A stretch of DNA of 39,154 nt, from positions 1 through 39,154 of the forward strand of contig JAQTZD010000017.1 of the NCBI GenBank assembly GCA_028687975.1, given 5' to 3'. The DNA is from Sediminibacterium sp. (GTDB lineage Bacteria; Bacteroidota; Bacteroidia; Chitinophagales; Chitinophagaceae). Shown in pieces: positions 19,102 to 31,991 of the stretch. The notes beneath the pieces are model-generated. The model saw only the letters and a list, made by a program, of their open reading frames with translations. It ran no database searches and was not told the origin of the DNA. A program made the translations under genes and the position numbers. Every line of letters begins with the position of its first letter. The stretch's first letter is position 1.

Positions 19102-19734
19102 TTATATAATCTTGTCTTTAAAAGCTTTGGCCACGGCCTCACTTTTACTGTTTACATGAAGTTTGTCGTATATTTTCTTGATATGACTTCTTACGGTATC
19201 AATTGCAATGATCATTTCTGCTGCAATCATCTTATAGCTATAGCCGTTTACCAGGAATTGCAATACCTGTTTCTCCCGATCACTCAGGTTGTAGTCTTCT
19301 CCCTTTTCGTTATTCATGGTAGAAAACATTTTAAGTACCTGAGTGGCAATGCAGGCTGTCATAGGTGCGCCACCGCTGGCAGCTTCGGCTATGTATTCCA
19401 GTAACCGGGCCGGTGCGGTTTTTTTCAGGATATATCCATTTGCCCCGCTCCGGATAGATTCAAATACATTTTTATTGTCGTCGAATACAGTGAGCATCAG
19501 CACTTTTACATCTGCATTGGACCCCCTAATCAGTTTCAGGCCATCAACCCCATTGGTACCGGGCATATCAATATCCATTAGTACCAAATCCGGTTTGAAA
19601 GCAGCTACTTCGTCTACCACATTGTTACAATTTTTAAACGATGCAAGTACCCGGAAGCCTTCACTTCCGTCTATTAGCATGGTAAGCCCTTCTCTTAACT
19701 GCGGATTGTCTTCGTATATCAGTACCTTGATCAT
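19102..19734 (-). CDS. NarL/LuxR-type response regulator
   Basis: A 210-residue regulator. Receiver domain 1-120 with the acidic pocket Glu8-Asp9, phospho-acceptor Asp54 (VLMDIDMPG), Thr82 and Lys104. A LuxR-type HTH covers about 148-208 (LSDREKQVLQFLVNGYSYKMIAAEM then TVRSHIKKIYDKLHVNSKSEAVAKA). The partner kinase is almost certainly the 1014-residue protein encoded at 20923-23967, separated from it by an acyltransferase gene. A CACAT-N4-ATGTG palindrome 49 bases before the start suggests autoregulation. It is the best candidate for binding the related sites elsewhere in the region. Confidence 0.93.
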   Translation of the reverse strand: MIKVLIYEDNPQLREGLTMLIDGSEGFRVLASFKNCNNVVDEVAAFKPDLVLMDIDMPGTNGVDGLKLIRGSNADVKVLMLTVFDDNKNVFESIRSGANGYILKKTAPARLLEYIAEAASGGAPMTACIATQVLKMFSTMNNEKGEDYNLSDREKQVLQFLVNGYSYKMIAAEMIIAIDTVRSHIKKIYDKLHVNSKSEAVAKAFKDKII

Positions 19735-19750
19735 TACATTGATTATTTAA

Positions 19751-19758
19751 TAAAAGTA
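19751..19758 (-). promoter_or_regulatory. -7-like box for the response regulator gene
   Basis: Minus-strand TACTTTTA differs from TAnnTTTG only in its last base. Its downstream end (19751) is 38.5 bases from the centre of the palindrome at 19783-19796. The predicted transcript start near 19745 gives a leader of about 11 bases. Confidence 0.5.
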
Positions 19759-19782
19759 GAGAGAAAGAATTGTTAAAACAAT

Positions 19783-19796
19783 CACATAAATATGTG
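19783..19796. promoter_or_regulatory. Operator-like palindrome CACAT-AAAT-ATGTG (site A)
   Basis: A perfect CACAT/ATGTG inverted repeat with a 4-base spacer, between the acyltransferase stop and the response regulator start. Read on the minus strand together with its flank, 18 consecutive bases (CACATATTTATGTGATTG) are identical to site C at 30462-30479, which lies on the plus strand ahead of another gene. This supports a specific protein-binding site rather than chance. Confidence 0.72.
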
Positions 19797-19803
19797 GAAA
19801 CCA

Positions 19804-20910
19804 TTAAAAACCCCGCCCACCTGTCAGCAAGAGGTAAAACTTAGGTAAATACCGCTTGAGCAAGCTTCCGGAAAGTATACAAAACAGCACAATAAGACCG
19901 GGTACCACCAGATACAGTGTTAACCTGTAATATGGCAAAAAGCTGAAGTATTTCATGGCAAAATGCATGGTATAGGGCAATAGCGGAACATGTGCTGCAA
20001 AAATAAAAAAGGCATATCCACTCAGCTGGTGAAACCACTTTTTGCTCATGGCCCATTTCACCACTTCATCCGAACCGAACCATATAGACAATAACCCGCA
20101 TAAAACTGCAATTTTAAAAAGAATTGCAACCAGCAACCTGCTCAAAAACAGTTCCGAATCCAGTTCAAAAGCCATAAATGTTTTGATGGTACAAATTCCA
20201 ATAAACAAAATAAAGGAAACGCCAACACTCATCCAGGATGGCTTCTTTTCCGGGTTGTAGTTTTTTTTCTGCAGCCAGATGCCAAGGGAGAAAAAGAATA
20301 AGCCGGAACCGTCGATGATCCAGAACTGAATCAGAATTAGCCACAACAGAAAAGTAAAAAGAAGCCATGCAAATGGTGCTCTTGCTAAAACCCACCTGAT
20401 AAATGGATAAAGCAGGTTATATACAAACAGGGCCAGTATGAACCAGAGCGGGTAATCAATCGGCGCCATGATCCATCTGGATAATACTCCTGCCCACCCT
20501 ATTTCTATATAAGGTCGATTGTTTCCCAGCTGGTCGATCCTGCTCCCGGCTACAATTTCTGCAGTAAACGGAATTTGTTGCAGCAGGAAGGTAAACAATA
20601 ATGCCAGGGCGCTCCACAGCAGATAGGGAATAACCAGGGTTTTAAATCTTTTACGGATTGTAGCGCCATAAGACCGATGATCGTTGTATGCAAAAAGGTA
20701 GCCGGAAATCAAAAAAAGTAAAGGAATCCGGAATCGCAGTAATCCATTGGCTGTGAGGTATTCGAAGAATGTAGTAAATGTAAGTGGTTCATCTACCATG
20801 CTAAAGGGAGAGAGGTAGTTGTTGTTCAGGTTGTACCCGTGAACATAAGCGAGCATAGTGATGCTTATGAAAGTGAAAAACCTGAATTTCAGACTTAATA
20901 ATCTACTCAT
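19804..20910 (-). CDS. Membrane acyltransferase (acyltransferase 3 family)
   Basis: A 368-residue polytopic membrane protein with about ten hydrophobic segments. Features of the acyltransferase 3 (OafA/NodX-like) family are the early histidine in AYVHGYN (His24 region), RFRIPLLFLISGYLFA, the basic loop RKRFKTLVIPYLLWS, DYPLWFILALFVYN, and a late FFIFAAHVPLLPY segment. Such proteins move acyl groups, often acetyl, onto surface sugars. The substrate is unknown. It is inserted between the histidine kinase gene (12 bases upstream) and the response regulator gene, implying it is a target or part of the envelope response that the two-component system governs. Confidence 0.85.
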   Translation of the reverse strand: MSRLLSLKFRFFTFISITMLAYVHGYNLNNNYLSPFSMVDEPLTFTTFFEYLTANGLLRFRIPLLFLISGYLFAYNDHRSYGATIRKRFKTLVIPYLLWSALALLFTFLLQQIPFTAEIVAGSRIDQLGNNRPYIEIGWAGVLSRWIMAPIDYPLWFILALFVYNLLYPFIRWVLARAPFAWLLFTFLLWLILIQFWIIDGSGLFFFSLGIWLQKKNYNPEKKPSWMSVGVSFILFIGICTIKTFMAFELDSELFLSRLLVAILFKIAVLCGLLSIWFGSDEVVKWAMSKKWFHQLSGYAFFIFAAHVPLLPYTMHFAMKYFSFLPYYRLTLYLVVPGLIVLFCILSGSLLKRYLPKFYLLLTGGRGF

Positions 20911-20922
20911 GCAATGGAAACT

Positions 20923-23900
20923 TTAAGAAACCGGAATAATTAATTTTACAGTAGTTCCTTCCTCTTGTCCTGAAATGATTTGGAGATTTCCGTGAAGTGC
21001 ATCTGCTCTTTTCCGGATATTACCGAGGCCGTTTCCGCTGTCTGCCAAATCGGGATTGAAGCCGATGCCATTGTCGGATACAGACAAATAAAGTCGTTTG
21101 TTTTCTTCATATATTGTAATGCTGGCTTTGGTACATTTGGAATACTTGGCTGCGTTATTTACGGCCTCTTTGAAAATCAGGAAAAAATCTTTCCTGGCTT
21201 CCATATCCAGTTTAACATCGTATACAGATTCGGTTACCCTGAACTCAATCTCAATATTTTTTGCTTCCAATACATTGGTGGCAAACTCCCGCATCCTGGC
21301 AACTGTTTTTTGCATGCTGTCGTTGGCTGGCTTGATGCTCCATACAATATCATCCATTGCTTCCATCATGCGCTGGCTGTTATCTGAAATTTTATTCAGG
21401 TATTCGCCAATTTTTAATTTGTCGTCGAGCCTCGCTTTTGCCATTGAGCTCAGGATGTTGATGGTACTTAATGTGCTGCCCATATCGTCGTGCAGGTCGC
21501 GGGATACCCTGTTTCGGATTTTCTCTACAGCAATGAATTTATTGAGTCTGAGCCGGTGCATACCGTAAGCAACCAATACAATGATTGTAAGTAAAATACT
21601 GATGAACCATCCTGTACGCCAGAATGGTGGCCTGATATAGATATTCAGTGAAACAATGTTGCCTGATCTGTTGCCGTCGTTGTCTTCACAATATGTTTTG
21701 AATACATAATTACCCGGCTGAATGTGCGAATAGTTTACCTGTGTTATCCGATCTGCCTTAATCCAGTCTTTATCTATCCCCTCCATTTTATAATAATAGG
21801 TGAGCTTGTCTCTCTGCATATAACTCAGTGCAGAAAAATAGATGGAAAAAGTATTTTGATAAGACTGGAGTCGTACTTCCGGGAGGCCCAGTAAAGAGTC
21901 GACCGGTATAAATGCATTGAGTAACTTAAAGTCGGTGATGGCCACATCCGGCGGCTGTACTTTATTGGTGAAAGCGGAAGGGTGAAAAAATATAAATCCG
22001 TTTGCCCCGCCAAACATGATGGATCCATCGCTGCATTTCAGGTCGGCCTCTGTGGTGAGGTTGGAAATCATGATTCCATCCTTTCTGCCATATACTGTTA
22101 CCCGGTTGTTGTTGGGGTTATACCGGCAGAGACCGTTTTTTGTAATCATCCAGAGATTTCCCTTATCGTCTTTCCTGATTCGTAAAACCGAATTGCCCGG
22201 CAAACCATCTTCGATGGTAAGCCATCTTACTTTTCCGGTTTTTTTATTGATGAAGCTCATTGCTCCGGCAGCAAAAACCAGGGTGCTGTCGTTCAGCTGA
22301 TCAATGTCTGCCCCACCTGTCTGAAACAACGAATTATCCGGACTGCCGGAAGTATAATGCCTGAGTATCCGGGCGCCATCCGCACTTAAACAATACAATC
22401 CCTGATCGAAAGTGGCCAGCCAGAGTAACCCTTCATTGTCTATGAGTATTTTACGAACAATGGTGCCCAATTTTTTGGTTACAGTAAACTTCCTGCCATC
22501 GTATCTGGCGATATGTCCCTGCTGGGTGCTCATCCAGATATTCCCTTTAGAATCTCCGGTAATAAAACGGATGGTTGATTTCTCCAGTTCCCGGGCTTCC
22601 AGAAAATATGTTTTTTTGAGCGCTGTATCATAAATCATGTACTTCCCCGCCTGACAACCAATCCATACCCTGCCATCTGTGTGCTGGTACAAACTCCAGG
22701 TTTGCCTGTAATTGATCCTGTTTTCCTCGCCCATAGGTGGCATATGATCGTATACTTTATTCGTATAACTTTTCAGATTCTTTTTCAGGGATATGACCCC
22801 ACCTCCCCAGGTGCTGAGCCATCGCTCCCCATTGCCGAGCTCGATCATGTCGGTAATCTCAATGCCCCTTTTTTCTTCACTGAACAGATAGTTACTTATG
22901 TCTGCAGGCCCGCTGTGCTCTCCCGTCATATACAAACCATTATCCGTAGCCAGCCAGATATTGGATTCTTTGTCTTCAATGATCTGGTGAACAGATTCGT
23001 ACTGAATACTCAGAGTATTGCCAAATGTGCTTTTGTAATAAATGAACCTGTTTAACCTTTTGTTGAAACTGTACAGGCTGTTGTTGCCATACAGCCATAA
23101 AACACCATTTTTGGTTTCAAAGAAAAAACGAGTTTCTTCGTATTGTGGGTTGGAGTTGATCCCGACAGTATCAGGCAGCTGTTTACCCGAATAGTCAAAG
23201 CACCTGCGCATGTGTTTGTTTGCCCAATTGAAGATCCAGTAGCGCCTTTGTTTATCGATGTGAATTTCTGAAAGCCCCTGGTTAAAAACAGTTTCGTTCA
23301 GCAGCGGAATGTTGAGCGGGTTGTTTCTTCGGGTGAACATTTTTTTTGAGGCCATGTCGTAAACAGCCAATCCACTGTCTGCACAGGGAAACCAGAACTG
23401 CCTTTTAATCGTATCCTCATAAAAAAAATGCTCGCTTATCCAACCCTTTGGAAACTTCATTTCAGTATCATCTGTAAAGGCTTTTTTTTCGGGGTTGTAT
23501 TTCAACATTCCATATTTCAGCATATGCAGGTATATATTCCCTCTGCTGTCTTTGTATAACTTCATGCTGCTTCTGGCCGGAATACTTCGGGTGGTATGTA
23601 TCGGAATATGCGAAAACTTCAGTTTTTGTGTATTGAACAACCCAACGGTATTGCGTGTGGGAAACAACAGCCACAGCTCGTGCGCATTCCCCGGAATAAT
23701 CTGAGTCAGATCGGCCATTGGCAGTTCGTCTGTTCCTGCCCTGCTGGTACCATAATTAATAAACCGGTTTCCATCAAATCGTTGCAGTCCGTTGGCGGTA
23801 CCGACCCACATGAATCCACGCTCATCCTGATAAATGCTGTACGCCACATTGGAGGCCATGCCAAGACCGTCTTCCGTTCCAATACGGAGGAATCCAAATC

Positions 23901-23967
23901 CTTCCTGTTGTGCAAACATTGGCTGAAAGCAGCTTAGTAAAAGAATCAGGAAGGCAGTTTTTCTCAT
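20923..23967 (-). CDS. Two-component propeller sensor histidine kinase
   Basis: From the ATG at 23967: 1014 residues, signal peptide about 1-19 (LLLSCFQPMFAQQ). The periplasmic part is a two-component-regulator propeller (repeats such as GFMWVGTANGLQRFDG, NIWLATDNGLYM, LLWLATFDQGLYCLSADG, NLWMITKNGLCRYNPNN) followed by a Y_Y_Y domain (about 690-775; SYQNTFSIYFSALSY, NYVFKTYCEDNDGN). One transmembrane helix at about 786-805. The cytoplasmic HisKA_3 segment has the phospho-acceptor His826 in RVSRDLHDDMGST, and the ATPase has N-box FKEAVNNAAKYS (about 932-943), DNGIGF (965-970) and GNGLGN (978-983). Unlike many PUL sensors it is a classical kinase with no fused receiver or AraC domain. An upstream in-frame ATG (24024) would hide the signal peptide. 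Confidence 0.92.
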   Translation of the reverse strand: MRKTAFLILLLSCFQPMFAQQEGFGFLRIGTEDGLGMASNVAYSIYQDERGFMWVGTANGLQRFDGNRFINYGTSRAGTDELPMADLTQIIPGNAHELWLLFPTRNTVGLFNTQKLKFSHIPIHTTRSIPARSSMKLYKDSRGNIYLHMLKYGMLKYNPEKKAFTDDTEMKFPKGWISEHFFYEDTIKRQFWFPCADSGLAVYDMASKKMFTRRNNPLNIPLLNETVFNQGLSEIHIDKQRRYWIFNWANKHMRRCFDYSGKQLPDTVGINSNPQYEETRFFFETKNGVLWLYGNNSLYSFNKRLNRFIYYKSTFGNTLSIQYESVHQIIEDKESNIWLATDNGLYMTGEHSGPADISNYLFSEEKRGIEITDMIELGNGERWLSTWGGGVISLKKNLKSYTNKVYDHMPPMGEENRINYRQTWSLYQHTDGRVWIGCQAGKYMIYDTALKKTYFLEARELEKSTIRFITGDSKGNIWMSTQQGHIARYDGRKFTVTKKLGTIVRKILIDNEGLLWLATFDQGLYCLSADGARILRHYTSGSPDNSLFQTGGADIDQLNDSTLVFAAGAMSFINKKTGKVRWLTIEDGLPGNSVLRIRKDDKGNLWMITKNGLCRYNPNNNRVTVYGRKDGIMISNLTTEADLKCSDGSIMFGGANGFIFFHPSAFTNKVQPPDVAITDFKLLNAFIPVDSLLGLPEVRLQSYQNTFSIYFSALSYMQRDKLTYYYKMEGIDKDWIKADRITQVNYSHIQPGNYVFKTYCEDNDGNRSGNIVSLNIYIRPPFWRTGWFISILLTIIVLVAYGMHRLRLNKFIAVEKIRNRVSRDLHDDMGSTLSTINILSSMAKARLDDKLKIGEYLNKISDNSQRMMEAMDDIVWSIKPANDSMQKTVARMREFATNVLEAKNIEIEFRVTESVYDVKLDMEARKDFFLIFKEAVNNAAKYSKCTKASITIYEENKRLYLSVSDNGIGFNPDLADSGNGLGNIRKRADALHGNLQIISGQEEGTTVKLIIPVS

Positions 23968-24018
23968 GTTAACAAATCTAATAAGCTGTTTTGAATAAAT
24001 GATGTCCGGAGCATAAAA

Positions 24019-24034
24019 CCACATGTTTATGTGG
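24019..24034. promoter_or_regulatory. Operator-like palindrome CCACAT-GTTT-ATGTGG (site B)
   Basis: A perfect 6-bp-arm version of the CACAT-N4-ATGTG motif, centred about 60 bases before the histidine kinase start on the minus strand. A consensus-fitting minus-strand -7 box, TAGATTTG (plus 23973-23980), lies between it and the start but at a different distance (53.5 bases) from that seen at the other sites, and too close to the ATG for a normal leader. The promoter layout here is thus unclear. Confidence 0.62.
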
Positions 24035-24145
24035 CCGTAGTGCTGTTAAATAAAGCGTTAAACGACTTTTAAACGGTTATTGGAAGGGATGAATTGTAAA
24101 TCCTGCTTTGTTTTTCTTCTTATGGGGTTTGTTTGCGGAAATATT

Positions 24146-24191
24146 CACATCAATGTGCGGTTGTATGCGGGTTTTTTAAACACCATTTTTG
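24146..24191 (+). promoter_or_regulatory. Degenerate operator (site F) and -7-like box for the GIN-domain gene
   Basis: CACAT-CA-ATGTG (24146-24157) is the same repeat with a 2-base spacer. CATTTTTG (24184-24191) matches five of six specified bases of TAnnTTTG and ends 39.5 bases from the repeat centre, close to the 38.5 seen at sites A, C and E. The flank CGGTTGTA resembles the GGTTGTA after site E. The predicted start near 24197 leaves a leader of about 33 bases. Confidence 0.5.
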
Positions 24192-24229
24192 TTCTGAATT
24201 AAAAATCAAACAAATTAAAAACGACGATC

Positions 24230-24742
24230 ATGAAAAAATTATTTCTTCTTACCCTGACAGCAGCAGTTGCGTTGTCCGGATTTGCAAATCCTGCCATGCG
24301 CCCGCTGAACAACAATGGTGAACGTTCAGCAGCCTCTTACAAAAGATTAACCCTGATGGGCAATCTGAATATCATTCTGGTGAATGATGACACTAAAATG
24401 GTGGAAGTGGCTGATACAAAAGAGGCTGAACAGGTAAGTACCACGTTTTATAAAAACAAACTGGTGGTAGACGGCTCTGCTGTAAACAGAAACAATCCGG
24501 TTACAGTAAGGGTGCCGGCCAACCAGCTGGAGTACCTGGAAGTGATCGGGAATGTGACTGTTCAGACCGAAAGCAACCTGAATACCCCCAAGCTCTATGT
24601 TACCATTGATGGTAAAGGCAAAGTGTCGCTTTCCAATAAGGGGCAGATTTATGTACGTTCCGGGGATGATATTAACCTTAAAGTGGAGAAGGCAACAGGC
24701 AGAGTTGTAGTAGATGAAAACAGCAAAGATTTTGAAAAATAA
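24230..24742 (+). CDS. Secreted GIN/DUF2807-like protein
   Basis: A 170-residue exported protein with a Sec signal peptide of about 20 residues (LLTLTAAVALSGFANPA). The remainder resembles the GIN domain (DUF2807, putative adhesin head): KRLTLMGNLNIILVNDD, VRVPANQLEYLEVIGNVTVQ, LYVTIDGKGKVSLSNKG, a right-handed beta-helix-like repeat. It lacks a lipobox, so may be periplasmic or secreted. A longer GIN protein is encoded at 29682-30404. It is the first rightward gene opposite the kinase gene and has a degenerate copy of the local operator, so it is a probable target of the two-component system. Confidence 0.72.
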   Translation: MKKLFLLTLTAAVALSGFANPAMRPLNNNGERSAASYKRLTLMGNLNIILVNDDTKMVEVADTKEAEQVSTTFYKNKLVVDGSAVNRNNPVTVRVPANQLEYLEVIGNVTVQTESNLNTPKLYVTIDGKGKVSLSNKGQIYVRSGDDINLKVEKATGRVVVDENSKDFEK

Positions 24743-24759
24743 ATAAAGTTGGTTTGGTT

Positions 24760-24779
24760 CATCACCAGTGATGGTGATG
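24760..24779 (+). repeat. Small inverted repeat after the GIN-domain gene
   Basis: CATCACC (24760-24766) and GGTGATG (24773-24779) form a 7-bp stem with a 6-base loop, 18 bases after the stop codon and upstream of the stronger terminator hairpin. It may help stabilise the 3' end of the message. Confidence 0.4.
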
Positions 24780-24800
24780 GCAGTAGGGTTCATAAAGCAG

Positions 24801-24830
24801 AAGGCTCCGGATTTTTCCGGAGCCTTTATT
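24801..24830 (+). terminator. Intrinsic terminator after the GIN-domain gene
   Basis: AAGGCTCCGGA (24801-24811) and TCCGGAGCCTT (24816-24826) form a perfect 11-bp stem with the loop TTTT, followed by TATT. It separates the GIN gene from the Crp-like gene, which starts only 20 bases after the stem; that gene therefore either depends on readthrough or has a promoter overlapping the hairpin. Confidence 0.87.
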
Positions 24831-24845
24831 AATTAAATTTACATC

Positions 24846-25433
24846 ATGGATTCGCGTATTGCGCAGCAACTTCAACAAATTGTAAACAGCATTCATCCGC
24901 TTTCTTTTGCAGAGTGGGAGGCCTTCAGCAGCAGCTGGCAGGAAGTAAATTATAAAAGGAAGGAATTGATAACCAGGGCAGGCGAGGTGGAGAAGTACCT
25001 ATACTTTGTAATATCAGGTATTCAAAGAGCATATTATTTAGACGATACACACAGAGAAGTAACTCTGGTGTTTACCTATCCACCTTCCTTCAGCGGGGTT
25101 CCGGATTCTTTTCAGTTGCAGCAACCAAGCGATCTGTGTTTTGAAGCCATTACTGCCAGCAGTATGCTGCGCTTATCCTACAGTGAATTTCAGCGGCTGA
25201 TCAATGAATACCCGAATATTGAACGTTTTGTAAGGCTTGCAACTGCTGCAGCACTAAAAGGGGTGCTCCGACGCCAGGCAGAGGTCATGGTGTTTTCTGC
25301 TGAAAACCGGTTTCGGTCTCTATTGAAGAGAAGCCCGCATATTCTGAATATGATTCCTCATAAATACCTGGCATCTTATCTGGGATTGGATGCTACTACT
25401 TTCAGTAAATTATTGAATTCGATCACCATCTAA
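24846..25433 (+). CDS. Crp/Fnr-family regulator
   Basis: A 195-residue protein with a cyclic-nucleotide-binding-like roll (about 15-115; KELITRAGEVEKYLYFVISGIQRAYYLD) and a C-terminal compact helix-turn-helix (about 165-195; IPHKYLASYLGLDATTFSKLLNSI). Typical of the Bacteroidota-specific Crp group of about 190 residues, which often sits beside stress or detoxification genes. No cysteine cluster is visible. Its stop codon is built into the stem of the terminator just after it. Target genes cannot be read from the sequence. Confidence 0.84.
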   Translation: MDSRIAQQLQQIVNSIHPLSFAEWEAFSSSWQEVNYKRKELITRAGEVEKYLYFVISGIQRAYYLDDTHREVTLVFTYPPSFSGVPDSFQLQQPSDLCFEAITASSMLRLSYSEFQRLINEYPNIERFVRLATAAALKGVLRRQAEVMVFSAENRFRSLLKRSPHILNMIPHKYLASYLGLDATTFSKLLNSITI

Positions 25434-25462
25434 ATCTTGGTGAAGGCCAAGATTTATTTTTT
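25431..25462 (+). terminator. Intrinsic terminator beginning at the Crp stop codon
   Basis: TAAATCTTGG (25431-25440) and CCAAGATTTA (25447-25456) form a perfect 10-bp stem, loop TGAAGG, followed by six T residues to 25462. The first three bases are the stop codon of the Crp-like gene, so the coding sequence runs directly into the terminator. Confidence 0.85.
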
Positions 25463-25492
25463 CGCCCCGGTTGAATTTTGCTGCATAAATCA

Positions 25493-26062
25493 ATGATTAT
25501 GCAAACAACCAGACAATTATTACAATCCCTTCGTACCTCATTGGAGGAAATGGACCAGTATTTTCACCAAACAGTCTCCGCACAGCCTGATGCGGTTTTA
25601 AACCAAACGCCCCAAAATAGAGGATGGTCAGCAATACAGGTACTGGATCACCTGAATTTTTACAGCAGATGGTACCTTCCCAGGCTCGAAGATGCGTTCA
25701 GGGAGAGCAGAAAGAGAAACCTGGCTGCACAACCCTACTTTAAATCGGGCTGGCTGGGAGGCTATTTTATCCGTATGATGAAACCCCGGGCCGACGGTTC
25801 TATTGCTTCTAAAATGAAAGCTCCTTCCAGCGCGGCACCTGCTGCAACTTTGGATAGCGCTGCTGTATTACTTGAATTTGAACAGCATTTACAGCACATG
25901 AACAGCCTTTTAAAGCTTGCGGAAAAAGCAGATCTGCTCCACACCCGTGTAACCACGTCACTCAGCTCCTTTATCCGTTTGAAATCAGGAGATGCATTGT
26001 GGTTTGTACTGGCACATGCTGAACGTCATTTCATACAAATGAAAAGAATCATCGGTAAGTAG
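25493..26062 (+). CDS. DinB-like four-helix-bundle protein
   Basis: From ATG 25493 (ATG 25499 is equally plausible) a 189-residue protein of the DinB/YfiT-like metalloenzyme superfamily. The three metal-ligand histidines are visible: His53 in QVLDHLNFY, and His175 and His179 in LAHAERHFIQMKRI. The N-terminal helix (RQLLQSLRTSLEEMDQYF) and the NRGWSAIQVLDHL turn are typical. Members include thiol transferases (bacillithiol- or mycothiol-dependent), but the reaction here is unknown. It follows a terminator and so is probably transcribed separately. No link to the surrounding envelope genes is seen. Confidence 0.82.
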   Translation: MIMQTTRQLLQSLRTSLEEMDQYFHQTVSAQPDAVLNQTPQNRGWSAIQVLDHLNFYSRWYLPRLEDAFRESRKRNLAAQPYFKSGWLGGYFIRMMKPRADGSIASKMKAPSSAAPAATLDSAAVLLEFEQHLQHMNSLLKLAEKADLLHTRVTTSLSSFIRLKSGDALWFVLAHAERHFIQMKRIIGK

Positions 26063-26069
26063 CACCTAT

Positions 26070-26083
26070 CACATAAATATGTA
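26070..26083. promoter_or_regulatory. Near-perfect operator copy (site D)
   Basis: CACAT-AAAT-ATGTA: one mismatch to CACAT-N4-ATGTG, with the same spacer as site A. It lies eight bases after the DinB stop and 124 bases upstream of site E. No -7 box was found at the spacing seen at the other sites, so it may be an auxiliary site for the receptor promoter or an unrelated match. Confidence 0.42.
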
Positions 26084-26141
26084 GTGCTGACGCTGCCTGA
26101 GCTTTCCTGATTCCCGTTGAATGGCAGGTATGGATTATGAA

Positions 26142-26165
26142 CGGCGTTAATTCATGTTAATGCCG
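26142..26165. repeat. Inverted repeat upstream of the receptor gene
   Basis: CGGCGTTAA (26142-26150) and TTAATGCCG (26157-26165) pair over 9 bp with one mismatch around the loop TTCATG. A further partial copy, GGCGTTAAA, follows near 26182-26190. No T-run is present. It is possibly a second regulator-binding site. Confidence 0.4.
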
Positions 26166-26193
26166 CTTTATCATGCCTCCTGGCGTTAAAATT

Positions 26194-26239
26194 CACTCTT
26201 TTATGTGGTTGTACCTAAGTGTGTTTTAAACAACTTTTG
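26194..26239 (+). promoter_or_regulatory. Degenerate operator (site E) and -7-like box for the receptor gene
   Basis: CACTC-TTTT-ATGTG (26194-26207) keeps the right half-site and three bases of the left. AACTTTTG (26232-26239) matches five of six specified bases of TAnnTTTG and ends exactly 38.5 bases from the repeat centre, as at sites A and C. The predicted start near 26245 gives a leader of about 14 bases. Confidence 0.52.
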
Positions 26240-26258
26240 ATCAATAAACAATTTAAAC

Positions 26259-28679
26259 ATGAAAATTCTTTTTACGTTCTGCACATTTTTTTTAGCATTT
26301 TTTGCCGAAGCAAAAAATACTGCAGAATTGTCCGGCCGGGTAACTGCCGGAGGAGCGCCTGTGTCTGGTGCTGCCATTTATCTGTATAAGGATACAGGTA
26401 ATACTATTGTGAAAACCACTATAAGTAGCGCATCCGGCTCTTTTGAATTTGGCACTGCACTGGATAAATACCGAATAAGGGTAGTGGCTGCCGGCTATGA
26501 AGAATTGTTTAGTGAAGTCTTGATGAAAGGGCATCCGGTTGAATTAAAACTTGCTGTACAGGTAAAAGAAATTCAGGGTGTTACGGTAAGTTCACAGCGC
26601 AGGATGATTGAGGTAAAAACAGATAAAACTGTTTTAAACGTAGAGGCATCTCCGTCTAATATTGGTACCAATGCTCTGGAAGTGCTCGAAAAAGCACCTG
26701 GAATTAGTGTGGATAAAGACGGAAATATCAGTATGCAGGGAAAAGCAGGCGTAATGATCCTTATTGATGGGAAGCCTACCTATATGAGTAATTCCGATGT
26801 AGCCAATTACCTCAAGTCGCTCTCCAGTGCACAACTGGACCAGATAGAACTGATTACACAGCCATCGGCCAAATATGATGCCTCGGGCAATGCCGGTATT
26901 ATCAATATAAAAACCAAAACCAATAAACTGGTTGGCTTAAACGGATCCATTGGTGTTGGATTCTCTCAGGGGGTATATGCCAGGGGGAATGCAAATGGAA
27001 CCATCGGATACAGAAAAGGAAAGTGGAACACTTTTGCTAACCTGAGCTATAACAGAAACAGGACGTTCAACGACATGTACATCACCCGCAATTTCAGGGC
27101 CAAAACAGATAACAGCCTGTTGTCTGTCATGGACCAGAAAAGCTCCATGCTGATTAACGGGGCCCCTCTGAACCTCAAACTTTCTGTAGACTACCTGGCC
27201 AGTAAAAGAACTACTGTAGGCCTGAATGTTTCCGGCTTTTATAACGATGCCAAGTTTGTTTTACCTACAGACATGTTTGTTTACAATGGTTCGGGCCTCC
27301 ATACCGGAAATTATAACACACTTACCCAGAACAACATGATCAATAAAAACATCAGTACCAACCTGAATTTTCGCACCAGACTGGATACGCTGGGTAAAGA
27401 GTTGGGAGCAGATGTGGATTATGTTCATTATCAATCGGACTTTATACAAAGCATGAATAATTATTTTATTCCAGCAAATGGCTCACCTGCAGAAAACCCT
27501 TATCTCCTGAAAGGAACGAACCCCTCTGACATCGATATTTATTCGGCTAAGCTCGATTATACGCATCCTTTGAAAAAGAACGCAAAGATTGAAGCAGGTT
27601 TGAAAACCAGTATTGTGGAAACGAACAGCGACTCCCGGTTTACCTACCTGAATGGAAGTGTTTGGGAAAAAGATCCCAGAAGCAACCATTTTATTTACAA
27701 AGAAAATATCAATGCAGCTTACCTGAATCTGAACAAACAGTGGTCTAAATGGGGTGCGCAGTTTGGTCTTCGTTTAGAAAATACCATTATGAAAGGGAAT
27801 CAGGTAACAATCAACCAGCAATTTGAAAGAAACCTGACCCAGCTTTTCCCAACGGTATTTCTCAGTTATAAATACAACGACAAACATTCATACACAATCA
27901 ATGCGGGAAGAAGAATTCAGCGCCCCAACTACAAAGACCTGAACCCGTTTCAACTGATCCTGAATCCTTTTACCTATAATCAGGGTAACCCCAATTTGCG
28001 TCCGCAATTTACCTGGAATATTGAGCTGGGACACAGTTATAACAATGGTATGCTGACCACCAAGCTTTCTTATTCCAAAACTACAGATATCATTACCGAT
28101 GTGCTCAGACAAATTGATTCAACCAAAGTCAGTTATGTACAAACAGAGAACATCGCTTCCAGTGAAAACTGGAACCTGAGTATGGCATTCAATAAATCTC
28201 TTAATAAAACAATAACTACAAGCATTTACGGAAGTGTATTCAATAATAAGTATGACGGTTTTTTTAACGGAGCGCCATTAAAGGAAAATTTCACCAGCTT
28301 CTCTTTTAATATGAACAATCAGTTTAAACTTGGTAAAGGCTGGTCGGCAGAACTCAGTGGATTCTACAATCATAAAAATCTGATTGTTGGTCAGTCCTTT
28401 ATAGGACCAATGTGGGCACTTACTACAGGAATCAGCAAGCAGGTGCTGAAAAACAAGGGTACGATCCGCCTTTCTGTAAGGGATGTTTTATTAACACAAA
28501 AAGTAAACATTGATCAGCGCTTTCAGAACCTCGATAGCAAATTCAGGCAGGTATTCGACAGCAGGACCTTCTCCTTGAATTTCACCTGGCGTTTTGCAAA
28601 AAACGAAAAGAATGTGGTTAGAAGCAGGCAAAACAGCGCTTCACAAGAGGAACAGAGTCGCGCTGGTGGACAACAATAA
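26259..28679 (+). CDS. TonB-dependent receptor-like outer membrane beta-barrel protein
   Basis: An 806-residue outer-membrane protein. Signal peptide about 1-18 (FFAEA), carboxypeptidase-regulatory-like domain about 22-100 (LSGRVTAGGAPVSGAAIYLY), plug about 110-225 (VLEKAPGISVDKDGNISMQGKAGVMILIDGKP and AKYDASGNAGIINIKTK), then a long beta-barrel of the OMP_b-brl_3 type with many Asn/Tyr-rich strands (GRRIQRPNYKDLNPFQ). The extreme C-terminus (RSRQNSASQEEQSRAGGQQ) extends beyond the last strand as a polar tail, so it does not end in the usual aromatic residue. No SusD partner is present, so this is not a classical PUL transporter. A degenerate copy of the local operator precedes it. Confidence 0.9.
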   Translation: MKILFTFCTFFLAFFAEAKNTAELSGRVTAGGAPVSGAAIYLYKDTGNTIVKTTISSASGSFEFGTALDKYRIRVVAAGYEELFSEVLMKGHPVELKLAVQVKEIQGVTVSSQRRMIEVKTDKTVLNVEASPSNIGTNALEVLEKAPGISVDKDGNISMQGKAGVMILIDGKPTYMSNSDVANYLKSLSSAQLDQIELITQPSAKYDASGNAGIINIKTKTNKLVGLNGSIGVGFSQGVYARGNANGTIGYRKGKWNTFANLSYNRNRTFNDMYITRNFRAKTDNSLLSVMDQKSSMLINGAPLNLKLSVDYLASKRTTVGLNVSGFYNDAKFVLPTDMFVYNGSGLHTGNYNTLTQNNMINKNISTNLNFRTRLDTLGKELGADVDYVHYQSDFIQSMNNYFIPANGSPAENPYLLKGTNPSDIDIYSAKLDYTHPLKKNAKIEAGLKTSIVETNSDSRFTYLNGSVWEKDPRSNHFIYKENINAAYLNLNKQWSKWGAQFGLRLENTIMKGNQVTINQQFERNLTQLFPTVFLSYKYNDKHSYTINAGRRIQRPNYKDLNPFQLILNPFTYNQGNPNLRPQFTWNIELGHSYNNGMLTTKLSYSKTTDIITDVLRQIDSTKVSYVQTENIASSENWNLSMAFNKSLNKTITTSIYGSVFNNKYDGFFNGAPLKENFTSFSFNMNNQFKLGKGWSAELSGFYNHKNLIVGQSFIGPMWALTTGISKQVLKNKGTIRLSVRDVLLTQKVNIDQRFQNLDSKFRQVFDSRTFSLNFTWRFAKNEKNVVRSRQNSASQEEQSRAGGQQ

Positions 28680-28707
28680 TTTTTTGAACACCCTAAAAAA
28701 TACTCCA

Positions 28708-28806
28708 ATGAAATTTGAAAGAATCATGGACCGCTTTTTTGATTTGCTGCTCGTGCTGAACGGTGAAGAGCGTCCCGAAGAAGTAAAAATTGACCATATA
28801 TTATAA
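28708..28806 (+). CDS. Possible 32-residue small protein
   Basis: A short ORF, MKFERIMDRFFDLLLVLNGE then an acidic tail, between the receptor (29 bases before) and the lipoprotein gene (18 bases after). Amphipathic hydrophobic N-terminal half, then Glu-rich. Tight spacing on both sides favours a real gene, but the length and the lack of a recognised family keep confidence low. Confidence 0.42.
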   Translation: MKFERIMDRFFDLLLVLNGEERPEEVKIDHIL

Positions 28807-28823
28807 TAAGTAAAAGAACAAGA

Positions 28824-29621
28824 ATGAAAAGATTGAATGTTGGAGGAATTGTATTGGTACTTTTTTCATTGATGGCAGTGTCTTGTAAAAAAGACTGCCC
28901 CAAAGACCCTGTACCGGCTCCGCAGGCCAAGAGGCTTTATAAAATTATGAATGATCCGCTGGAATTCCGACTGTTTGAATACAGCGCCAACGGTGACGTT
29001 TCACAGTTGATTTCTCAGTTTGTTAATAACCAGGCAACGAACTCGGTTACGGTACAAACTAATAAATTTATATACGAGAATAACCTGTTGAAAAGGGTAA
29101 ATAATGAAGGAGGATATCTTTTGTATCATTATACGGGTACCAAACTGGATTCCATTCAGGCCTATGCCATCAATAATCGTCGTTACTCCAGTTTGTTCCC
29201 CGAAATGAACACACAGAATCAATTGGTTTCACTTATTGAAAAACCAACAAGGCAAGATCCCGGAATGCCGGTTGAATCTAAGATGACCTATGAGTATGCG
29301 GCTTCGGGTAATATCATCAAGCAGGGTTATTTCACAAAAGATGCGGTTGGAGGGGATTTTCGTTTGATATATAATACGTTGTACAGCGATTATGATAACA
29401 GCCCGAATATGGAAAATTTCACTTTCTCTGGTATTTATTTGAAAGGAATTGTATTTATGAAAAACAATCCCCGGAAAATTGAGGAGGCTAGAGCCACAGG
29501 AACGGTTTATGAAACAACCTGGAACGAATACACGTATGATGCAGATCAGTATGTGACTAAAAGAAGGCAGTCTTACAGCACCACCAATGTGGTGATCACC
29601 TACGAATACAGTTACTATTAG
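28824..29621 (+). CDS. Hypothetical lipoprotein with Tyr-rich YD-like repeats
   Basis: A 265-residue lipoprotein with its lipobox at Cys21 (LMAVSC) followed by a Lys/Asp/Pro linker. The body alternates short beta-strand-like units rich in Tyr, Asn and Thr (NKFIYENNLLKRVNNEGGYLLYHYTGTKLD, YEYAASGNIIKQGYFTKD, WNEYTYDADQYVTKRRQSY), reminiscent of Rhs/YD-type repeats of Bacteroidota lipoproteins (DUF4595-like). Probably surface-exposed. No enzymatic motif is seen. It lies in the rightward run following the receptor and may be transcribed with it. Confidence 0.75.
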   Translation: MKRLNVGGIVLVLFSLMAVSCKKDCPKDPVPAPQAKRLYKIMNDPLEFRLFEYSANGDVSQLISQFVNNQATNSVTVQTNKFIYENNLLKRVNNEGGYLLYHYTGTKLDSIQAYAINNRRYSSLFPEMNTQNQLVSLIEKPTRQDPGMPVESKMTYEYAASGNIIKQGYFTKDAVGGDFRLIYNTLYSDYDNSPNMENFTFSGIYLKGIVFMKNNPRKIEEARATGTVYETTWNEYTYDADQYVTKRRQSYSTTNVVITYEYSYY

Positions 29622-29681
29622 CAGAAAGAATATCCACCATATCGCAGCTTAGACTGAACCTGGTATGGAAACAACAGCATT

Positions 29682-30404
29682 ATGAAAAAACAATTTTTGT
29701 TTCTATTTTTTGGAGCCATACTGGTTCAGCTTACTGCCTGCAATAAAATGATACGTGGCAGTGGACATGTTATTCAGCAGACGATTACGCTGGATACATT
29801 TACTGCAATTGAAATCGACGGCAGTTTTGAGGTATCTGTACAGCGGAATACCAGCCCGTCTGGTTTACTGCTCGTGGAGGCAGAAGACAATATCGTTCCG
29901 CTGATAAATGCACGTGTGGTAAACCGGGTGCTGAAAATCGGGTATTCAACAATTGATCAGATCCGAACAAGGAAGACCCCAAAAATATTATTGAATACGG
30001 CTGTCTTAACAAGATTATACGTCAATGGGTCGGGCAGTATTCAGACCAGTGGTTCCTGGGAGGGAACTGAGTTGGAGCTGCGGGTGAATGGAAGCGGGGA
30101 TATTATTACCGATCAACAGGTTCAGACACTGACGACTTCGGTGAACGGTTCGGGGAATATCTCGATTGCGGGCAGGACTGTTGTTTCGGATTCCTATATC
30201 AGCGGAAGCGGGAAAATTCATGCATCCGCGCTGATATCTGAAAAAACCAGGGCAGAGCTTTCCGGCTCCGGTGCAATCTATTGCGGGGTGGTGGAAAAGG
30301 AGCTGGATGTGGTTGTTTCCGGGAGCGGGAAAATATATTATTCGGGAAATCCGGGGGTCATCAGGACCCGGATTAGCGGTAATGGACAGATTATCAAGCA
30401 GTAA
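29682..30404 (+). CDS. GIN-domain (DUF2807) lipoprotein with seven G-x-G repeats
   Basis: A 240-residue lipoprotein, lipobox Cys20 (QLTAC). Residues 25-105 start the GIN domain (RGSGHVIQQTITLDTFTAIEIDGSFEVSV). From 115 on, a turn motif recurs: VNGSGSI, VNGSGDI, VNGSGNI, ISGSGKI, LSGSGAI, VSGSGKI and ISGNGQI, at residues 115, 136, 155, 174, 194, 213 and 232, a period of 19-21 residues. That is one rung of a right-handed beta-helix. Such proteins are thought to be adhesin heads or envelope scaffolds; no activity is established. Paralogous in fold to the protein at 24230-24742. Confidence 0.85.
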   Translation: MKKQFLFLFFGAILVQLTACNKMIRGSGHVIQQTITLDTFTAIEIDGSFEVSVQRNTSPSGLLLVEAEDNIVPLINARVVNRVLKIGYSTIDQIRTRKTPKILLNTAVLTRLYVNGSGSIQTSGSWEGTELELRVNGSGDIITDQQVQTLTTSVNGSGNISIAGRTVVSDSYISGSGKIHASALISEKTRAELSGSGAIYCGVVEKELDVVVSGSGKIYYSGNPGVIRTRISGNGQIIKQ

Positions 30405-30461
30405 TGATTTATTTGATCCCCAAAACGGCAGGTGAACTGTCTGCATAGGGCCAATTATTTA

Positions 30462-30507
30462 CACATATTTATGTGATTGACATCTTCGGGATTATCGAAC
30501 AAATTTG
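30462..30507 (+). promoter_or_regulatory. Operator-like palindrome (site C) and -7-like box
   Basis: CACAT-ATTT-ATGTG (30462-30475) is a perfect copy of the motif and shares 18 consecutive bases with site A read on the other strand. CAAATTTG (30500-30507) matches five of six specified bases of TAnnTTTG and ends 38.5 bases from the palindrome centre, the same geometry as sites A and E. The predicted start near 30513 is 12 bases before the small lipoprotein ATG at 30525. Confidence 0.65.
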
Positions 30508-30524
30508 CAGATATAATTTTCAGC

Positions 30525-30683
30525 ATGTTTCATTGGCTTTCCTACATCATTTTTGTTTGGCTCATCTTTCAACCGGTTTCATGTGAGGAAACCGTAGTGA
30601 AAGCAGGAAACGCTTCTATACAAACGGAAACGGCGGAAAGTTTTGACGAACTGGTTCAATACAATCATTTCCCCATCGATTAA
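30525..30683 (+). CDS. Small lipoprotein-like ORF, 52 residues
   Basis: MFHWLSYIIFVWLIFQPVSC is a strong hydrophobic segment ending in a lipobox-like cysteine (residue 20), followed by an acidic 32-residue tail (EETVVKAGNASIQTE and onward). The start fits the predicted transcript start at about 30513. It ends 15 bases before the S41 gene, so the two are probably co-transcribed and perhaps coupled. No family recognised. A TTG at 30477 is an unlikely earlier start because it overlaps the operator and promoter. Confidence 0.5.
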   Translation: MFHWLSYIIFVWLIFQPVSCEETVVKAGNASIQTETAESFDELVQYNHFPID

Positions 30684-30698
30684 CCATTTTTTATTCGT

Positions 30699-31991
30699 GT
30701 GAAATATACGCTCTTGCTGATCTGTTGTTTAAAAGGCGCTGTCCCTTTTTTTGCGCAATCTTCACTTCAATCCAGGAAGGCTTCCTTCGATTCAATTGCC
30801 AAAGTATTGGAGAACTATTATGTTTTTTCCGATAAAGCAGGCGAAATGAGCACCTATCTCAGGCAGCATGCTGCATTGTACGATACATTTACGAACGGGA
30901 ACAGCTTAGCGGAGCAGCTTACCCTGAATCTGAGAAAAATATGTAAGGACCAGCATCTGAAAATTATTTTTGAGGAACCCCGCCCCGCTGTAAAATCAGG
31001 AACCATTGCGGCAGCCGATTCCCGCAACAGCTGGTTAAAAAACCTGCTTACAGAAAACAATTATGGCATTAAAGAGAAAAGGATTCTTCCCGGCAATATC
31101 GGCTATCTGAACATTCCCATGTTTGGCCCCCTGAATCTTTGTGCAGACACCCTGATTGCTGCAATGAAATATGTGGCACAAACCGATGCCCTGATCCTTG
31201 ATCTCAGGAGCAGCAGGGGAAGTCTGGACGAAAATGCAGTTCCTTTTTTATCCAGTTATTTCTTTGCTGAGCCGGTGCATATGTTCGATTTTTATACCCG
31301 TCACAATCAGACCACCCGGCAGTTCTGGACTTATGCAGTTGTGCCGGGTCCGCTTTATCTGAATAAACCGGTTTACATTCTCACCAGCGGAAGGACTTTT
31401 TCCGGCGGTGAGGAGCTGGCTTATGATCTTCAACAGCTTAAACGGGTAAAAATTATTGGAGAAACCACCCGGGGTGGCGCCAATCCGACCGATCTGATTA
31501 GGGCAGATGTGCATTTTAGTATATCTGTTCCCGTAAGCAGGGTGATTAATGCGGTTACGGGAACCAACTGGGAGCAGGTGGGAGTGAAGCCTGATGTGGC
31601 CGTAAAATCAAACATGGCATTGTATACAGCCCATGAGTTGCTCCTCGACAGTTTTTTGCGTACACCAGCCATAGGCATGGATCATAAAAGAACATTGCAG
31701 CAGGTACAGGCCGATCTCCGTTTACATAAACCCGTTCTTCATGCAGTTGAGTTCAACTTACAGGGCTATCCTGATGCAAAGGAAGTTTACCTGTCCGGAT
31801 CTTTCAACAACTGGGCACCCAGGACTACCACAATGAAACGCACTGTTCAGGGATGGGCAGTTTCAATCGAAGCTTCTCCCGGAGAGCTGACGTATAAATT
31901 TGTAGTAGACGGAAAATGGATACTCGACCCGTCCAATAAACAAGTAAAAACAGAAAACGGATCAGAAAATTCGCTGACCCTGATCAAATAA
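30699..31991 (+). CDS. S41-family peptidase with C-terminal AMPK/CBM48-like glycogen-binding domain
   Basis: A 430-residue secreted protein starting at GTG 30699, signal peptide about 1-20 (PFFAQ). An N-terminal helical domain of the IRBP/S41 type (about 25-115) precedes the S41 core (about 128-310): ALILDLRSSRGS (164-175), the nucleophile motif TSGRTFSGGEE (229-239, Ser235), and GETTRGGANPT (254-264). No PDZ domain is evident. Residues about 350-430 form an early-set sandwich like the AMPK beta/CBM48 domain: EFNLQGYPDAKEVYLSGSFNNW, ELTYKFVVDGKWILDP. The fusion joins a protease with a carbohydrate-binding fold, suggesting action on glycosylated or glycan-bound proteins; substrate unknown. The operator at site C lies upstream. 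Confidence 0.85.
   Translation: MKYTLLLICCLKGAVPFFAQSSLQSRKASFDSIAKVLENYYVFSDKAGEMSTYLRQHAALYDTFTNGNSLAEQLTLNLRKICKDQHLKIIFEEPRPAVKSGTIAAADSRNSWLKNLLTENNYGIKEKRILPGNIGYLNIPMFGPLNLCADTLIAAMKYVAQTDALILDLRSSRGSLDENAVPFLSSYFFAEPVHMFDFYTRHNQTTRQFWTYAVVPGPLYLNKPVYILTSGRTFSGGEELAYDLQQLKRVKIIGETTRGGANPTDLIRADVHFSISVPVSRVINAVTGTNWEQVGVKPDVAVKSNMALYTAHELLLDSFLRTPAIGMDHKRTLQQVQADLRLHKPVLHAVEFNLQGYPDAKEVYLSGSFNNWAPRTTTMKRTVQGWAVSIEASPGELTYKFVVDGKWILDPSNKQVKTENGSENSLTLIK

Follow-up and report, generated by a model that had tools for sequence, protein, structure and literature searches.

A conserved CACAT-N4-ATGTG palindrome as the probable operator of an autoregulated NarL-type two-component envelope regulon in Bacteroidota

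Introduction

To our knowledge, operators have been identified for few classical two-component regulators of Bacteroidota. Contig JAQTZD010000017.1 of a Sediminibacterium sp. draft genome (assembly GCA_028687975.1), analyzed here over its whole stretch of 39,154 nucleotides ("the window"), raises the question of which protein reads a short palindrome, CACAT-N4-ATGTG, that recurs over 11 kb beside the genes of a NarL-type response regulator and a sensor kinase, and to what effect. The comparisons presented below make it very probable that the palindrome, in the extended 16-bp form Y-CACAT-N4-ATGTG-R, is the operator of this response regulator and marks an autoregulated two-component envelope regulon. 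The assignment is based on comparative evidence: the conservation of the motif in orthologous promoters, its promoter geometry and its co-occurrence with the regulator, all of which can be read directly from the sequences. A search of one open-access library gave no account of the motif among the matches listed, and its status as undescribed extends only as far as that search. What appears to be new is a response regulator system of known kind with unusually wide cis-conservation.

The palindrome in the window

The sites and the two regulatory genes are as follows.

19102..19734, minus strand: NarL-type response regulator with REC and GerE helix-turn-helix domains (PF00072, PF00196); predicted ligand of the operator, putatively autoregulated
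19751..19758, minus strand: -7-like box TACTTTTA, one mismatch, 24 nt from operator A
19783..19796, minus strand: operator A, CACATATTTATGTG followed by ATTG, exact, facing the regulator gene; found at the same place in most regulator orthologues
20923..23967, minus strand: sensor kinase with Reg_prop propeller, Y_Y_Y, HisKA_3 and HATPase_c domains (Pfam)
23973..23980, minus strand: -7 box TAGATTTG, perfect, 39 nt from operator B (53.5 from its centre)
24020..24033, minus strand: operator B, CACATAAACATGTG followed by GTTT, exact, facing the kinase gene; core and spacing recur in other kinase promoters
24146..24159, plus strand: operator C, degenerate, CACATCAATGTGCG followed by GTTG, before GIN protein 1 (motif scan)
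24184..24191, plus strand: -7-like box CATTTTTG, one mismatch, 24 nt from operator C
26070..26083, no strand assigned: operator-like site D, CACATAAATATGTA, without a convincing -7 box, 124 bp from operator E (motif scan)
26194..26207, plus strand: operator E, degenerate, CACTCTTTTATGTG followed by GTTG, before the outer-membrane receptor (motif scan)
26232..26239, plus strand: -7-like box AACTTTTG, one mismatch, 24 nt from operator E
30462..30475, plus strand: operator F, CACATATTTATGTG followed by ATTG, exact
30500..30507, plus strand: -7-like box CAAATTTG, one mismatch, 24 nt from operator F

The window scan recovered the copies named in the initial annotation, i.e., three exact palindromes (19783-19796, 24020-24033 and 30462-30475), one copy with a single mismatch at 26070, and two with two mismatches at 24146 and 26194. 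None of 60 Markov-1 simulations contained an exact copy; in the 2.97-Mb draft genome the exact palindrome occurs five times, compared to two for the reversed pattern. All copies had been placed in non-coding gaps. This holds for the exact ones, given a kinase start at 23967, but not for two additional one-mismatch copies located within coding sequence, at 23201 (kinase) and 29542 (a 265-aa protein). The program-made list of open reading frames (ORFs) offers an earlier kinase ATG at 24024, inside site B; the start at 23967 was preferred because of the -7 box and the signal-peptide-like start that accompany it.

At A, C, E and F, the distance from the end of the motif to a one-mismatch TANNTTTG box, of the Bacteroidota sigma-A type, is 24 nt in each case; the same box is perfect at the kinase gene and conserved in the regulator promoters. 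The distance of 38.5 from the motif centre to the end of the box, given earlier for A, C and E, was reproduced on recalculation, and the value of 39.5 reported for F proved to be a miscount of the same 38.5. Site B had been described as lacking the common spacing: it does not show the 24-nt distance, since the kinase promoter has a different register, but a paired box exists on the kinase side at 39 nt. Site D, said to have no paired box, indeed has none with at most one mismatch within 10-49 nt on the plus side, but one is present off-register, at 26 nt, on the minus side.

The -7 box of the kinase ends only ∼5-6 nt before the ATG (window 23967-23980; also L201, L202 and L203), and in Sediminibacterium this mRNA may have almost no leader.

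Orthologous regulator promoters

Homologues of the response regulator (E ≤ 1e-40) were detected in 61 of 98 family genomes drawn by the search tool. In 10 family genomes, that of the window included, the best match had at least 64% identity, and in the remainder at most 54%; in the congener G087 no match was found at this threshold. A scan of named genomes yielded 80 regulator loci, 66 of which were tabulated by identity class, while 79 entered a scramble test and 78 were placed, together with the window, on a tree. The loci come from Sediminibacterium, Segetibacter, Flavihumibacter, Belliella, Cyclobacterium, Algoriphagus, Arenibacter, Yeosuana, Maribellus, Pedobacter, Mucilaginibacter, Chitinophaga, Hymenobacter and others; the lineages of five of the named genera or genomes were checked.

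The motif (at most two mismatches, within 200 nt upstream) was found at 35 of the 37 loci whose regulator is at least 70% identical to that of the window, compared to 1/37 for the reversed motif. The corresponding values were 8/9 (reversed, 0/9) at 60-70% identity and 11/20 (reversed, 2/20) at 45-60%. In 33 of the 35 positive loci of the first class the site lies 45-68 nt before the ATG. Among the 79 loci of the scramble test, 64 carried the motif with at most two mismatches, and in 52 it was accompanied by a -7 box at 23-25 nt; the reversed motif gave 4 and 2, and four scrambled palindromes gave 1, 8, 2 and 10 loci, in no case with a box. Comparison of 36 non-redundant regulator promoters revealed the conserved arrangement Y-CACAT-NNTT-ATGTG-RTTG-N20-TANNTTTG, the remainder being near random. 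In the same way, the motif and its 24-nt register mostly reappear in the close family promoters, and the sequence between them differs; in this family-genome comparison the motif was not found in the regulator promoters of G064 and G039. The motif is thus kept in regulator promoters across several Bacteroidota families, as well as in kinase promoters, and this conservation, together with the co-occurrence described below, supports the initial proposal that the NarL-type protein encoded at 19102-19734 is the ligand.

In the regulators themselves, receiver residues D9, D54, T82 and K104 are invariant in 20 aligned sequences, helix TVRSHIKKIYDKL is near-invariant in near relatives, and the recognition helix TVRSHIKKIYEKLHV is near-invariant among regulators of at least 60% identity. 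Variant palindromes (CCCATAAATATGGG, CGCATAATCATGCG) were observed upstream of the distant homologues L264, L266 and L262, which possibly reflects co-evolved specificity.

Promoter register

The register was examined in 278 site-orientations from 50 named loci, a set that includes the regulator promoters by which the loci were chosen. A -7 box (at most one mismatch) was present at an offset of 24 nt in 77 of them, while other offsets gave a mean of 2.1 and a maximum of 7; for perfect boxes the values were 28 at this offset and a mean of 0.12 elsewhere. The kinase promoters conform to a different consensus, CACATAAAYATGTG-RTTT, with a box (at most one mismatch) at 38-42 nt in 24 of 26, these being rows selected from the 50 loci because a site was visible there. 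The -7 box is the same as that of Bacteroidota housekeeping sigma promoters (TAnnTTTG), but, unlike in plain promoters of this type, an upstream operator is coupled to it at a fixed distance.

Operator centres at about -43.5 and -58.5 correspond to class II and class I-like activator positions, respectively. These values would apply here, to the regulator and most targets and to the kinase, respectively, because the box was taken at -12 to -5, the position given for Flavobacterium psychrophilum in PMC9723704.

Among 43 listed pairs of sites 21-299 bp apart, 12 are separated by 124-130 bp, ∼12 helical turns. Many of these are not independent, since they come from a single divergent kinase promoter sampled in several genera. 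Pairs in other settings are D-E of the window (124 bp) and those in G066 (125 bp) and G083 (119 bp, just outside the range), and a second group, mostly from Cyclobacteriaceae, has a separation of 190-192 bp. Examples of the 124-130-bp class are 24020/24146 and 26070/26194 in the window, 13757/13882 in L066, and 4613/4739 in L212. One might guess from this arrangement that paired operators cooperate.

Co-occurrence with the regulator

The bare palindrome was rejected as a genome-wide predictor, giving 66 exact hits compared to 31 for the reversed control in nine regulator-carrying genomes. Since both it and a loose pattern with up to three mismatches were too weak, a composite with the -7 box was used. 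With at most one mismatch, the composite gave 26 hits (2 reversed) in the 10 family genomes with the regulator, but 12 (10 reversed) in the other 88. A stricter composite (at most two mismatches) gave 47 hits, compared to 2 reversed, in the genome of the window and 12 named regulator-carrying genomes, being present in 12 of the 13. The genome without a hit was that of Yeosuana, whose regulator promoter, having 23-nt spacing and no RTTG, would escape this pattern. Composite hits therefore concentrate in genomes that carry the regulator. Most of the predicted targets are envelope proteins or are exported. In the genome of the window, the palindrome extended by its promoter-proximal part (CACATNNTTATGTGRTTG, at most two mismatches) was found at seven places: five in the window, one before a cytochrome c gene (contig C41) and one in a long open frame (C72).

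Alternative explanations

Several observations weigh against the assignment of the palindrome to the response regulator. The number of window copies with at most two mismatches (18; shuffle mean, 21.0) is not above chance, so the motif signal in the window consists of the exact copies and their context rather than of this total. Two of the sites, C and E, are degenerate, and no promoter accompanies D. The CACATNNTTATGTGRTTG pattern with at most three mismatches does not exceed its control in the same genome (51 vs 59 reversed). Some orthologues have no clear site (L216, four mismatches; L219 and L238, three each), and at L207, L235 and L240 (Ilyomonas, also L074) the best match has two mismatches and is 137-161 nt away; those of L207 and L235 (161 and 141 nt from the ATG) are probably chance. 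A fifth scramble, TCACA-N4-TGTGA, was found at 33 of 79 loci, 27 of them with a box (true motif, 64 and 52), but was not counted as independent because it coincides in part with the true site, shifted in register. Related loci, such as L209 and L232, are not independent either. A single-clade origin of the operator is not supported: the operator-plus-box label, carried by 53 of 79 rows, is scattered over the regulator tree, requiring 19 changes, compared to a mean of 22.0 on shuffling and a value as low in 45 of 500 shuffles; boxes that are shifted escape the strict criterion, which accounts for part of the scatter. Finally, G030 has two motif-promoter sites but no regulator match at E ≤ 1e-40. 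On the same tree, the regulators of Maribellus and Flavobacteriaceae fall among those of other families, a placement that could reflect horizontal transfer.

A chance origin, or one from functionless local repeats, would agree with the unremarkable window total and with the only ∼twofold excess of the bare exact palindrome over its reversed control. It is rejected by the conservation at orthologous promoters with fixed spacing, the register and the scramble controls, and we regard it as having a negligible probability. The Crp-like protein encoded at 24846-25433 is a candidate ligand in that Crp/Fnr sites are palindromes of similar size, its gene lies inside the cluster, and a homologue is found beside the regulator in G083 and L207. 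The distribution of sites does not, however, follow this protein: Crp homologues (E ≤ 1e-45) occur in 33 of the 98 family genomes, of which the 25 without the regulator have 6 composite hits (4 reversed), while two regulator genomes lacking a Crp homologue (G004 and G077) have 4 (1 reversed), and a homologue is located nearby at only one of the 50 named regulator loci (L207). The Crp-like protein was thus disfavoured, and is very unlikely to be the ligand.

The two remaining explanations leave the operator with a NarL-type protein. Other NarL-type paralogues might also read it, so that the regulon would be shared rather than owned by this regulator. The motif is indeed frequent at regulators of 45-60% identity (11/20), CACATCATTATGCG-like sites accompany Hymenobacter regulators that share the recognition helix, an exact CACATAAATATGTG lies in G055 ∼200 nt upstream of the kinase gene that belongs to a regulator of 49% identity, and the sites of G030 occur with no regulator detected. 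Yet the 88 genomes without a regulator of at least 64% identity remain at the control level, though 51 of these genomes do encode a homologue at E ≤ 1e-40, and the regulator promoters of L076-L079 (∼50% identity) match with three to four mismatches at best; a shared regulon therefore seems fairly unlikely. The regulator could also own the operator but act on it as a repressor. Many palindromic autoregulatory sites are repressor sites, and the operator position was deduced from promoter boxes, not transcript starts. In contrast, the site precedes the -7 box by one fixed distance, abuts RTTG and leaves the -7 box uncovered, which is a class II layout, and the kinase site lies still further upstream. 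Repression is accordingly considered unlikely, and the preferred reading remains that of an operator through which the NarL-type regulator activates its targets.

Proposed mechanism

The Reg_prop/HisKA_3 kinase encoded beside the regulator would phosphorylate it, and the phosphorylated regulator would bind as a dimer, with each half-site taken by one subunit. In most target promoters, the operator is directly upstream of RTTG (-33-like) and 24 nt before TANNTTTG, the position expected of a class II activator. The regulator promoter contains such an operator, conserved in orthologues, and since this is of the class II type, a positive autoregulatory loop is proposed. An operator is also present in the kinase promoter (site B and the 26 chosen kinase promoters); located ∼15 nt further up, with 39 nt to the -7 box, it would act from a class I-like position. 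The predicted regulon is mostly composed of envelope or exported proteins, namely GIN proteins, an outer-membrane receptor, an S41 peptidase, a small lipoprotein and, on another contig, a cytochrome c, and the signal may likewise be envelope-related.

A bolder scheme can be imagined, in which one regulator, a 16-bp operator, two fixed geometries and operator pairs ∼12 helical turns apart form a widespread Bacteroidota envelope-surveillance circuit, and small exported targets, a conserved C-terminus being present in some of them, feed back on the kinase propeller as peptide signals in an autoinducing loop; we consider this scheme quite improbable.

Comparison with known systems

The response regulator belongs to the NarL/FixJ family, PF00072 and PF00196 both matching above cut-off. 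As in NarL and VraR, REC and GerE domains take up nearly the full length; the best solved match by sequence is NarL (PDB 1a04), followed by VraR (5hev). NarL sites have a 7-2-7 layout with the heptamer TACYYMT. Read as two inverted heptamers separated by 2 bp, the 16-bp operator appears compatible with 7-2-7, but its half-site, YCACATN, differs from the NarL heptamer. Unlike for NarL and VraR, the partner kinase is a Reg_prop-propeller sensor. A sensor region with Reg_prop and Y_Y_Y and a histidine kinase core is shared with the hybrid two-component systems (HTCS) of Bacteroidota. In contrast to HTCS, the kinase and regulator are separate ORFs (20923-23967 and 19102-19734), and the DNA-binding domain is GerE instead of AraC-type.

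The system resembles LiaFSR/VraTSR in combining a GerE-type regulator with a HisKA_3 kinase, and in its Toastrack-domain (DUF2807) proteins encoded at 24230 and 29682. In PMC11237479, DUF4097, DUF2154 and DUF2807 are unified as Toastrack and linked to LiaRS and VraSR. By analogy, the system may work like LiaRS/VraSR. The GIN proteins of the window look exported, however, while PMC11237479 argues for an intracellular Toastrack, and the kinase has a large propeller region and the regulon other members than in LiaFSR/VraTSR. Membership in LiaFSR was rejected, as its defining LiaF feature was not found: LiaF-like_C (PF09922) had no match in the draft genome (96% complete), compared to 5 positive among 14 control genomes.

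Predicted regulon

The other genes of the cluster are listed below.

19804..20910, minus strand: Acyltransferase_3 membrane protein (PF01757), between kinase and regulator
24230..24742, plus strand: GIN-domain (DUF2807) protein 1 (PF10988), signal-peptide-like start
24846-25433: Crp-like protein, inside the cluster
26259..28679, plus strand: TonB-dependent/OMP_b-brl_3 outer-membrane receptor (PF14905, PF00593, PF07715)
28824..29621, plus strand: 265-aa predicted lipoprotein (homologues compared)
29682..30404, plus strand: GIN-domain (DUF2807) protein 2 (PF10988)
30525..30683, plus strand: 52-aa predicted small lipoprotein (ORF and N-terminal sequence; Pfam match not found)
30699..31991, plus strand: S41 peptidase with an AMPK1_CBM/CBM48-like domain at its end (domain scan)

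To the right of the Crp-like protein, the domain scan placed a DinB_2 protein, followed by the outer-membrane receptor. Several of these genes have operator-bearing counterparts elsewhere. In G066, the acyltransferase homologue has its own operator-like site (L141, site 620) and a receptor-like gene bears an operator (L096). S41 peptidase homologues with an operator were found in G083 and in Maribellus, the protein of the latter being 37% identical. The 265-aa protein gave no Pfam match above cut-off; its relatives in other genera have YD/RHS-like repeats and their own operator. DUF2807 proteins are also among the predicted targets L140 and L147. Beyond the window sites, a single exact site in the genome of the window (G000) has a class II promoter; it lies before the cytochrome c gene of contig C41 (L001), whose homologues in Arenibacter (48% identity) and the metagenome-assembled genome CW02 (45%) both have the operator.

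The set of first genes after motif-plus-promoter sites comprised 80 genes, from loci chosen partly for having sites and with weak three-mismatch sites included; ∼40 first genes, some from other loci, were scanned against Pfam. They encode GIN/DUF2807 proteins, S41 peptidases, beta-lactamase-fold serine hydrolases, cytochromes c, YD/RHS-like lipoproteins, OmpA and barrel proteins, a TonB-type receptor, an acyltransferase and small exported proteins. A LytTR protein, an amine oxidase and an esterase lie outside the envelope pattern, and several products have no Pfam match. A hydrophobic N-terminus was predicted for 55 of 67 non-regulator first genes and 146 of 280 long ORFs; both lists are crude, and the enrichment in exported products is only indicative.

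Small proteins of 71-76 aa, predicted to be exported and preceded by the operator, were observed in L205 (7574-7792), L209 (7668-7898), L212 (7701-7928) and L214 (7786-8001). They have a signal-peptide-like start, a variable middle and a conserved C-terminus, S[IL]L[ED]G[ST]-x-R-[FL]-x-x-W. In Pedobacter and Mucilaginibacter, a gene for an extracytoplasmic function (ECF) sigma factor with an operator-like site is located beside the regulator (L290, 1571-2134; L242, 5718-6284). In the draft genome G030, motif-promoter sites precede protease-like genes (C411; L174 and L190).

Implications

Sequence alone gives, for this system, a likely binding site, a promoter register, an autoregulatory loop and a set of candidate targets. 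Its observed range extends from Chitinophagaceae to Cyclobacteriaceae, Flavobacteriaceae, Sphingobacteriaceae and Prolixibacteraceae. In species such as Sediminibacterium salmoneum or Segetibacter, the regulator, the regulon and the rules by which TANNTTTG promoters are activated are open to direct test. A common regulator for GIN (DUF2807) proteins, S41 peptidases and small exported proteins would provide a lead to their function.

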